DNA from: an uncultured Actinomycetes bacterium
Lineage (GTDB): Bacteria; Actinomycetota; Thermoleophilia; Miltoncostaeales; Miltoncostaeaceae
NCBI GenBank assembly: GCA_903928615.1
Contig: CAIYRJ010000005.1
Coordinates: 1-12,073 of the forward strand
Length of the DNA stretch: 12,073 bases
Reading direction: 5' to 3'
Made by a program: the position numbers and the translations under genes. Positions 6,903 through 9,656 of the stretch are shown here, in pieces. Each line of letters begins with the position of its first letter. The first letter of the stretch is position 1. The notes below the pieces were generated by a model. The model had not been told where the DNA came from. It saw nothing but the letters and a program-made list of their open reading frames with translations, and ran no database searches.

Positions 6903-9656
6903 ATGGCTACTCACGCACCATCTCCCGCACACGCTCCCGGTGGAGGCCACGGAGGCCACGCCCACCACGAGGACCCGCGCCCGGTCTCGTACTGGTGGAT
7001 CCGCGCCGCCCTCGGCACGGTGGCCGGCGTGCTGTTCGCGTTCCTGCTCGTGTTCCTGCTGCGGGCGCTGTTCGGGTTCGAGCCGCTCTATGACGGCGGG
7101 GTGTATGGCGGCGTCGCCGGCCTGATCGGCGCCATCGGGTTCCTGTGGGGCATCGGCTGCTTCGACTTCTGGCTCGGCTGGGCCAAGGGCGCGGACATCT
7201 CGGAGGAGGACCACTCCTTCCACGGCGTGAGCAACTGGAAGCAGTACTTCCGGTTCAACACCGACCACAAGGTCATCGGCATCCAGTACCTGGGCATGAC
7301 GCTGTTCTTCATGCTCTGGGGCGGCCTGATGGCCCTGCTCATCCGCACCGAGCTCGCCGCCCCCGGCCAGCAGATCGCGGACGGGGAGACCTACAACGGC
7401 TTCCTGAGCATGCACGCGACGCTGATGATCTTCGTGTTCGCCGTGCCGGTGTTCGGCGGCATCGCCAACTACGTGTTGCCGATCATGCTGGGCGCCAAGG
7501 ACATGGCGTTCCCCCGCCTCAACGCCCTCTCGTTCTGGTTCCTGCCGGTCGCCGGCTTCATGTTCCTCGCGAGCATGTTCACCGGCATGTTCGGCGCGGC
7601 GTGGACGGCCTACCCGCCGCTGGCCAGCCAGGGCACGATGGGCCAGACGCTCTTCGAGCTCGGCGTGCAGTTCGCGGGAGCCTCATCGATCGCCACGGCG
7701 ATCAACTTCCTGGCGACCATCGTGACCATGCGCGCGCCGGGAATGACCATCTGGCGCATGCCGATCCTCGCGTGGGCCACCGGCGTCACCTCCGTGCTCG
7801 CCGTGTTCGCCACGCCCTTCATCGCCGGCTCGCAGTTCCTGACGATGTTCGACCGCATCATGGGCACGAACTTCTTCGTGCCCGACCAGGGCGGCGACGT
7901 CATCATGTACCAGCATATTTTCTGGTTCTACTCGCACCCGGCCGTGTACATCATGCTCTTGCCGGGCTTCGGGATAATCAGCGAGGTGATCGCGACATTC
8001 GCCCGGAAGCCGCTCTTCGGCTACCGCGCGATGGCGTTCTCGATGGTCGCCATCGCGGTGCTCGGATTCGGCGTGTGGGCGCACCACATGTTCGTGTCCG
8101 GCATGGCGGCCTGGCTGCGCGTGCCCATGATGATCACCACGATCATCATCGCGGTGCCCACCGGCGTGAAGATGTGGTCGTGGCTCGCCACGCTGTGGCA
8201 GGGACGAATCCACATCAAGACGCCCATGTTGTGGGCACTGGGCTTCCTCTTCACCTTCCTGATGGGCGGACTGTCGGGCGTGTTCCTCGGCATCGTGCCC
8301 GCCGACATCCAGATGTCGGACACCTACTTCGTCACCGCCCACCTGCACTACGTGCTCTACGGCGGCAGCGTCTACACGATCTTCGCGGGCCTCTATTACT
8401 GGTTCCCGAAGATGACGGGGAAGATGTACTCCGAACGCCTCGGCCACTGGCACTTCTGGCTGACGTTCATCGGCACCCAGCTCACGTTCTTCCCGATGCA
8501 CTGGCAGGGCCTGCAGGGAATGCCGCGCCGCGTGTCCGACTACGACCCGCGCTTCGAGACGGTGAACTCCATCGAGACCATCGGCTCGTACATGCTCGGC
8601 GTCGCGACGATCGTCTTCTTCTACAACATCATCGTCTCGTGGAAGTCGGGCCCGAAGGCGCCGTGGAACCCCTGGCGCGGCAAGACCCTCGAGTGGATGG
8701 TGTCCTCGCCGCCGCCGCTGTTCAACTTCGACGCCGTGCCCCAGGTGGTCGGCGGCCCGTACCAGTACGGCATCCCGGACGCGCGCCACGCCGTGGTGTT
8801 CGCGCCCGAGGAGTTCGGCGGTGAGCTGAAGGAGGACACCCGCTACCCGGTGCTGGTGGTGGCCAACGAAACGCTCACCTCGCAGACGCTCATCGACGAG
8901 ATCCGGGCGCGAAACGCCGACGGCCTCTGGTCGTTCCAGCTCGTCGTGCCCGTGGGCGATGGTGATCGCTCGGTCGCCGAGCGGCGACTCGCCACCACGC
9001 TGGCGATCCTCGCCGAGTCGGGCGTGTCGGCGACCGGCCGCGTGGCCGACGGCGACGTGGTCTCCGTGGCCACCGAGGCCGCCAAGGAGATCCAGCCGAA
9101 CGAGCTGGTGATCGCCACCCTGCCGCTCGCCGAGAGCCAGTGGATGCGCACCGACTCGGTGGACAAGGTGCGCAAGGCCACCGGCGTGGCGCTGAGCCAC
9201 GTGGTGGTCCCGGCGAACGACGCCCGCGCCCTGGCCGGCACCTCGGCCCTGCCGCTGGTGATGGTGGTGGCCACCGAGGCAATCGGCGCCGAGGCGCTTG
9301 CCACGGTGGTGCGCACCCGCGCCGACGCCGAGCCCGCCCGATTCACCGTGGTGGCTCCGCTCGACCTGCCCGACCCCCGCTGGGGCGCCGAGGCCAACGA
9401 GCGCCGCCGCGCCGCCGGCGAGGCCATGACGGCCACGATCAACGCGCTGGTGAACACCGGCGTGGCCGTGGAGGGCGAGGTCATGGACGACGCCCCCTCG
9501 GTGGCGCTGCCCCTGGCAATCGATGCCTACAAGCCGTCGCGCATCATCGTCGCGGGCATCAACGGCGAGACCGCGGGCCTGCGCGAAGCCGCAGAGGCCG
9601 CCGCCGGCGACACCCCGGTGGAGGCCGTGAACCTCGGCGCGGCGGCGGGGGCCTAG
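6903..9656 (+). CDS. coxA: Cytochrome c oxidase subunit I, A2-type, with extra N-terminal helices and C-terminal tandem Usp-like domain
   Basis: 917-residue catalytic subunit that reduces oxygen and pumps protons; typical family members have 520-660 residues. Order: His-rich tail (1-26), two extra helices (about 30-57 and 66-92), the twelve-helix COX1 core (about 118-610), then a soluble tail (640-917). Core ligands are all present: low-spin heme H171 and H482, high-spin heme H480, and CuB ligands H345, H394 and H395, with Y349 as the cross-linked tyrosine. The D-channel entry residues N189, D200 and N207 and the K-channel K423 are kept. The channel glutamate of HPEVY is replaced: the motif reads Y343-SHPAVY349, the mark of A2-type enzymes such as Rhodothermus and Thermus caa3. 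The frame is continuous and the codon bias unbroken through the tail, so the fusion looks genuine. No strong ribosome binding site precedes ATG at 6903. Confidence 0.96.
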   Translation: MATHAPSPAHAPGGGHGGHAHHEDPRPVSYWWIRAALGTVAGVLFAFLLVFLLRALFGFEPLYDGGVYGGVAGLIGAIGFLWGIGCFDFWLGWAKGADISEEDHSFHGVSNWKQYFRFNTDHKVIGIQYLGMTLFFMLWGGLMALLIRTELAAPGQQIADGETYNGFLSMHATLMIFVFAVPVFGGIANYVLPIMLGAKDMAFPRLNALSFWFLPVAGFMFLASMFTGMFGAAWTAYPPLASQGTMGQTLFELGVQFAGASSIATAINFLATIVTMRAPGMTIWRMPILAWATGVTSVLAVFATPFIAGSQFLTMFDRIMGTNFFVPDQGGDVIMYQHIFWFYSHPAVYIMLLPGFGIISEVIATFARKPLFGYRAMAFSMVAIAVLGFGVWAHHMFVSGMAAWLRVPMMITTIIIAVPTGVKMWSWLATLWQGRIHIKTPMLWALGFLFTFLMGGLSGVFLGIVPADIQMSDTYFVTAHLHYVLYGGSVYTIFAGLYYWFPKMTGKMYSERLGHWHFWLTFIGTQLTFFPMHWQGLQGMPRRVSDYDPRFETVNSIETIGSYMLGVATIVFFYNIIVSWKSGPKAPWNPWRGKTLEWMVSSPPPLFNFDAVPQVVGGPYQYGIPDARHAVVFAPEEFGGELKEDTRYPVLVVANETLTSQTLIDEIRARNADGLWSFQLVVPVGDGDRSVAERRLATTLAILAESGVSATGRVADGDVVSVATEAAKEIQPNELVIATLPLAESQWMRTDSVDKVRKATGVALSHVVVPANDARALAGTSALPLVMVVATEAIGAEALATVVRTRADAEPARFTVVAPLDLPDPRWGAEANERRRAAGEAMTATINALVNTGVAVEGEVMDDAPSVALPLAIDAYKPSRIIVAGINGETAGLREAAEAAAGDTPVEAVNLGAAAGA
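8838..9635 (+). other. C-terminal tandem Usp-like alpha/beta domains of CoxA
   Basis: Residues 646-911 form two similar units. Unit A (about 648-769) runs YPVLVVANETL, an acidic helix, SFQLVVPV, helix AERRLATTLAILAESGV, NELVIATLPLAESQWMR, and ends ALSHVVVP. Unit B (about 782-911) repeats the plan: LPLVMVVATEA, RFTVVAPL, helix AGEAMTATINALVNTGV, SRIIVAGING, and ends PVEAVNLG. This alternating strand-helix pattern resembles universal stress protein folds. Unit A's phrase ELVIATLP..xSQWMR recalls stand-alone Usp-like proteins of actinobacteria, from memory. The classical G-2x-G-9x-G(S/T) ATP motif is not visible in either unit, so nucleotide binding cannot be claimed. Because COX1 ends in the cytoplasm, the domain should face the cytoplasm. 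Confidence 0.75.

Follow-up and report, generated by a model that had tools for sequence, protein, structure and literature searches.

A predicted tandem Usp-like domain fused to cytochrome oxidase subunit I in Miltoncostaeaceae, and its separate-gene counterparts in other Thermoleophilia

The window examined in this work is a 12,073-nucleotide stretch of DNA from an uncultured bacterium of the family Miltoncostaeaceae (class Thermoleophilia), viz. positions 1 to 12,073 of contig CAIYRJ010000005.1 of the GenBank assembly GCA_903928615.1. It contains an open coxA gene (6903..9656, + strand, as are all other features of the window given below), whose 917-amino acid (aa) product consists of the core of a cytochrome oxidase subunit I (COX1), a linker and two units of predicted universal stress protein (Usp) fold. 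In several other families of Thermoleophilia the two-unit part is encoded by a separate gene located between coxA and coxC. We give about an even chance to the reading that the tail of CoxA is this operon-resident tandem Usp-fold protein, fused to an A2-type caa3 CoxA and acting there as a cytoplasmic subunit that binds a ligand or a partner protein.

The fused CoxA protein and its conservation in Miltoncostaeaceae

The part of CoxA that precedes the tail includes a COX1 domain (residues 125-563; 7275..8591; PF00115, E 1.5e-153), and the match to TIGR02891, which covers residues 118-615, exceeds the cut-off for that family (678.7 versus 670.75 bits). The motif YSHPAV (residues 343-348; 7929..7946; WFYSHPA at 341) marks the protein as type A2, and YSHPxV stands in place of GHPEV in all 69 fused proteins that were collected; this motif defines A2-type oxidases according to PMC8780969. 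Based on these sequence characteristics, residues 118-615 appear to constitute an ordinary A2-type subunit I, and the enzyme is assigned to the caa3 type because the product of coxB (5892..6875) carries a C-terminal cytochrome c domain (PF13442) in addition to the subunit II domain (PF00116). Two further helices are predicted in the AlphaFold2 model at residues 28-83 (6984..7151), ahead of the twelve of COX1.

About 300 residues of CoxA remain C-terminal of the COX1 match. They begin with a linker (residues 616-646; 8748..8840), which is modelled with low confidence and is strongly conserved in sequence (R628 H629 A630 and G639 G640 E641), and continue with unit 1 (residues 647-776; 8841..9230) and unit 2 (residues 781-912; 9243..9638), the limits of both units, as taken from the models, being approximate. 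A preliminary description, made from the sequence of the window, had proposed that CoxA runs in frame past COX1 into two internally similar units of Usp-like fold on the cytoplasmic side of the membrane, and each of these points has held. The two halves of the tail share 28 identical residues out of 100 (BLASTP E 4e-07 in a two-sequence comparison made with no composition correction; phmmer E 9e-06). The tail is modelled confidently by AlphaFold2, with a predicted local distance difference test (pLDDT) score of 90, and displays the five-stranded alpha/beta Usp fold, so that by modelling the tandem Usp-like fold is confirmed. Both by sequence and by VIA-align, its nearest solved relative is the protein TT0030 of Thermus (2IEL), followed by universal stress proteins, and 2IEL matches a profile of 44 tails with E 3.9e-16 over positions 10-141, which span the whole unit. 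The tail of the window reaches no Pfam or NCBIfam family, the cut-off for PF00582 included; of the 44 tail relatives, 6 match PF00582 with E values no higher than 0.01, the best being 1.4e-4. Due to this, the tail is labelled Usp-like from its structure and from its relatives. The C-terminus of cytochrome oxidase subunit I faces the cytoplasm, and the distribution of lysine and arginine in the loops between the modelled helices (23 inside versus 5 outside, N-terminus excluded) agrees with this orientation for CoxA.

The fusion was surveyed in 42 genomes, which were labelled as Miltoncostaeaceae from the names of the matching proteins, using a cut-off of E up to 1e-60 for presence of the oxidase. 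The oxidase was found in 39 of them, and in all 39 the core and the tail lie in a single frame. The complete fusion is seen in 35 of the 42, while in G009, G016, G065 and G035 the shared frame of core and tail can be followed until the contig ends or the frame changes. No core was found in G021, G023 and G032, and a contig of G023 starts within the tail. No unfused copy of this oxidase occurs among the family matches at the above cut-off; an additional, different subunit I (43% identity) is present in G025. The fusion is seen in assemblies of high contiguity, viz. G030 (a single contig) and G063 (three contigs), and it is kept even in the small genome of G008 (1.5 Mb at 98% completeness). In the 69 fused proteins, which are distinct sequences inclusive of near-copies and form 51 tail clusters at >95% identity, the mean frequency of the commonest residue is 0.905 in the linker, and 0.66 and 0.64 in the two units. 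Further, for 16 pairs within a genus, the ratio of nonsynonymous to synonymous substitution rates (dN/dS) is 0.16-0.35 in unit 1, 0.09-0.35 in unit 2 and 0.06-0.18 in COX1; both units are thus under purifying selection within the genus.

The separate-gene state and a second type of fusion

The preliminary description had also envisaged that the tail might be encoded by a gene of its own in related genomes. In four other families of the class (f3, f5, f7 and f9) this is the case: coxA ends near residue 640 and is followed by a two-unit gene of about 275-290 aa, which in several loci overlaps coxA by a few bases, and then by coxC. Based on the position of this gene between coxA and coxC in the four families, the tail is a candidate for a fused, operon-resident subunit. 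Solirubrobacter taibaiensis KCTC 29222 (L057), of the Solirubrobacterales, is an example of a cultured species with the gene in separate form. The gene order was taken from open reading frames in combination with local profile searches; the length of open frames was not used, because several frames of at least 900 aa in GC-rich relatives are spurious, overlapping ones.

In a survey of 249 genomes of the class, the tail profile was matched in 145 (E up to 1e-35) and the core in 156 (E up to 1e-190). Among the places listed for the two profiles, 113 of the core lie outside the own family, and 87 of these are followed at most 1 kb downstream, and on the same strand, by a listed tail match, comprising 82 separate genes directly after coxA, 4 one-unit fusions and 1 match at a distance of 938 bases; 24 are without a listed tail match and 2 have the tail on another contig. 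Of the 17 loci viewed among these 24, 16 lack a tail gene in the interval from coxA to coxC (in G060 coxC was likewise unseen at the locus), and in G128 the tail gene is present but is cut by the contig end. Weaker tail matches in G143, G175 and G172 are located elsewhere than the oxidase locus. Of 296 genomes surveyed in the phylum outside the class sample, 17 showed a match (E up to 1e-45), and 16 of these belong to Thermoleophilia. The remaining one, G411, is from a different actinobacterial class; one of its contigs (L167, G411:C166) carries coxB, coxA, the two-unit gene in separate form and coxC, and may represent a transfer or contamination. A search with one separate protein gave 7,949 matches; of the 120 listed, none has a Pfam domain and all are hypothetical or nameless. 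In family f3, coxC is followed by another Usp-like gene, which encodes a single unit extended at the N-terminus by about 70 residues (L027:4886-5539, L029:5392-6033 and L050:5738-6385), and the copy in L027 clears the Pfam cut-off for Usp (27.8 versus 24 bits).

A second type of fusion is present in family f11 (Gaiellales-like), where in all four genomes CoxA bears a single unit and has a total length of 803-821 aa; its linker is longer than that in Miltoncostaeaceae and the end of this linker resembles the start of the separate genes. A search with the f11 unit retrieved 44 proteins; a COX1 domain is present in 41, the length is 795-820 aa in 24, and one protein is named Gaiellales. Seven proteins outside this range were viewed (P0187, P0189, P0190, P0191, P0196, P0204 and P0208). 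After reading, P0189 (852 aa) and P0190 (880 aa) were not counted as fusions, and neither were P0204 and P0208, in which the frame is damaged. In P0187 and P0196, each a single record, a two-unit part lies N-terminal of COX3 in one chain (Pfam was run for P0187).

From the difference between one and two units and the different linkers, we infer that the two types of fusion arose separately. In a tree based on 57 cores the two fused families branch apart, with weak forks (83/66 for the own family and f8), and a joint clade of both is not rejected by the approximately unbiased test (p-AU 0.105). A quick tree of the units places unit 1 of the fused family together with the first unit of the separate f3 gene (95 in the Shimodaira-Hasegawa-like approximate likelihood ratio test, SH-aLRT); unit 2 of the fused family has a long branch in this quick method, so that its orthology with the second unit of the separate gene is based on the order of the units. 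The separate-gene state, the one-unit fusion and the loss of a signature in unit 2, described below, all go beyond the preliminary description.

The conserved signature and possible roles of the tail

The signature S745-x-W747 (9135..9143) lies in unit 1, in the loop that follows its fourth strand. Counted as S-x-W followed by L, M, I, V or H, the signature is present in unit 1 of 67 of the 69 fused two-unit proteins, but in unit 2 of only one, whereas the separate proteins have it in both units (22/25 and 25/25), and it is also found in 27 of the 28 one-unit fusions. An earlier, narrower pattern gave 7/69 and 1/69 for the fused and 19/25 and 24/25 for the separate proteins, and it was dropped because it required letters that are not used by the fused family. 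Both types of fusion therefore leave one signature-bearing unit tethered to CoxA. Residues T739, P741, S745, W747, D751, D754, R757, K758 and R694-R695 of unit 1 are nearly invariant (in at least 97% of the 69). From the fold, we take the S745-x-W747 loop to correspond to the loop that holds phosphate in ATP-binding Usp proteins.

Most likely, the tail is a tethered cytoplasmic regulatory subunit with a ligand and an effect that would be as follows. The two-unit gene, which several families have between coxA and coxC, would in Miltoncostaeaceae have been joined to the cytoplasmic C-terminus of CoxA, and the tail would act in the oxidase as a stoichiometric subunit on the cytoplasmic side. Unit 1, which keeps the conserved edge of the pocket, would bind either a small ligand, other than ATP in the usual Usp manner, or a partner protein, with unit 2 as its structural partner, and binding at the tail would alter the activity or stability of the oxidase. 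The separate protein would be expected to associate physically with the oxidase. A broader proposal, which we advance tentatively and consider more apt to be wrong than right, is that the terminal oxidases of much of the class have an undescribed Usp-fold subunit in the cytoplasm, fused to the catalytic chain probably twice, which would read a small molecule through a non-ATP pocket and thereby set respiration at the oxidase itself.

Two known systems provide analogies for a regulatory role. According to PMC9006882, the gene for the Usp protein TeaD is clustered with that for the tripartite ATP-independent periplasmic (TRAP) transporter TeaABC and TeaD modulates its activity; TeaD resembles the tail in being a Usp protein at a membrane system, but it binds ATP, is not fused and has a transporter as its target. 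In KdpD, as described in PMC8214093, a Usp domain likewise acts at a membrane system, and it resembles CoxA in being contained within a membrane protein; however, KdpD is a sensor kinase and bears a motif for cyclic di-AMP (c-di-AMP).

Several observations weigh against a role of the tail as a ligand-binding subunit of the oxidase. The gene for the tail is lacking at the oxidase in all 10 listed members of family f8 (3 checked) and in 3 of 3 checked members of f10, and as whole families are without an adjacent tail gene, the tail is unnecessary for an oxidase of this kind. Its position on the core is unsettled in the AlphaFold2 model, in which the linker has pLDDT <50 and the predicted template modelling score (pTM) is 0.63. 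Further, the tail diverges quickly between genera, its dN/dS nearing or exceeding 1 in several of 6 pairs, for which synonymous sites are saturated. An internal GTG start might also release a free tail: ATG is found near the junction of core and tail in 4 of 32 rows (in the row for L025, sliced at another RHA, the junction is absent), and such a start is conceivable because GTG valine codons occupy common positions. Lastly, the known ligand motifs are missing. The motif G-2x-G-9x-G(S/T), which marks only the ATP-binding branch of Usp proteins, is seen in none of the 69 fused, 25 separate and 28 one-unit proteins. The first two of these sets also have no instance of the c-di-AMP motif of KdpD, (A/G/C)xSxSx2N(Y/F), and a search of the own genome, which is 90.65% complete, found no diadenylate cyclase. 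Walker A is likewise absent from the tail proteins in which it was sought.

It is possible, if somewhat unlikely, that the tail binds no small ligand and is instead a structural or assembly subunit, which folds, stabilises or docks the oxidase (e.g. to coxC or respiratory complexes). The absence of familiar ligand motifs, the retention of unit 2 despite loss of its signature, the location of the separate gene between coxA and coxC and the joining of the two-unit part to COX3 in two proteins are all in accordance with such a role. However, a scaffold has no obvious need for the polar signature of unit 1 (T739, P741, S745, W747, D751 and R757) or for keeping S-x-W in nearly all one-unit fusions. 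Based on the conserved signature, the motif results and the analogy to TeaD and KdpD, a regulatory subunit, which would bind some ligand or partner, is favoured over a pure scaffold. That the tail is a neutral passenger, acquired when a stop codon was lost once and having no role at the oxidase, is improbable: the tail-less oxidases of this kind in the same class and the rapid divergence between genera, chiefly of unit 2, agree with it, but the tail is retained in every family genome with the oxidase, small genomes included, is under purifying selection within the genus, and a second type of fusion exists elsewhere. That the tail is a tethered Usp domain of the ordinary kind, which senses ATP or c-di-AMP, is very improbable, since both motifs and the cyclase were not found. 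Direct tuning of the oxidase by a nucleotide or a stress ligand, as raised in the preliminary description, is conceivable; the motif counts speak against ATP being held as in typical Usp proteins. The preliminary description had allowed for a stop codon lost through sequencing or assembly error, and although related families do have separate genes, an error of this kind is rejected as practically negligible, because this fusion recurs in 39 family assemblies, G030 and G063 among them, and the linker is conserved.

Known systems compared and the surrounding operon

TT0030 of Thermus thermophilus, the nearest solved relative, is an uncharacterised, stand-alone single unit, unlike the tail of CoxA, and its name was not met in the literature searched. 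TTHA0350, Rv2623 and UspE have, similar to the tail, two Usp-fold units per chain; however, such tandem universal stress proteins are soluble, and TTHA0350 has been solved with ATP (3AB8). The superposition of the whole tail on them is poor (rmsd about 15-19), and therefore the units are either packed differently in the model or their packing is poorly modelled.

PMC3673472 and PMC12159084 report Usp domains joined to permeases (in the former), to exchangers, to a chloride channel domain and to kinases, and the word cytochrome does not occur in the main texts of these two sources. Usp-tailed amino acid permeases resemble CoxA in bearing a C-terminal unit on a membrane protein, but they are transporters and not redox enzymes. 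Three amino acid permeases with a tail-like unit at the C-terminus (P0048-P0050; two of the sequences were read) were also retrieved here, by a similarity search that scored the 7,994 candidates with the most shared words. A2-type caa3 oxidases share the core, motif and operon with CoxA, and in 2YEV an operon neighbour is likewise joined to subunit I. However, the partner in 2YEV is subunit III, which we take to be a membrane subunit, whereas that in CoxA is a soluble Usp-fold protein. No description of a Usp-oxidase fusion was found in the literature searched, as judged from titles and the openings of abstracts among the entries listed, which for several searches were the top of a longer list. 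In its separate-gene form, the two-unit protein is an unnamed candidate for a respiratory subunit in several Thermoleophilia families. Further, what Usp-fold proteins act on is an old question, and as the fusion fixes both stoichiometry and place, this question becomes a test on the purified enzyme.

In the window, the operon consists, in order, of a gene for a UbiA-family prenyltransferase, a gene for a major facilitator superfamily transporter, coxB, coxA, coxC (9660..10280; subunit III, PF00510), a cytochrome c gene (10265..10786, start approximate; PF00034) and a gene for a short-chain dehydrogenase. The first of these (3721..4572, start approximate; PF01040, E 4.4e-70) is a candidate ctaB-like haem O synthase. 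The window comes from a draft genome of 1.8 Mb in 424 contigs, in which, at the completeness given above, no bd oxidase was found. Its placement in Thermoleophilia and Miltoncostaeaceae agrees with the names of similar proteins, viz. P0009 (81% identity) and L043. CoxA is the sole strong COX1 match in this genome, and a second, partial match of the COX1 family (50.6 bits) is located on a different contig (G000:C111:9682-10146).
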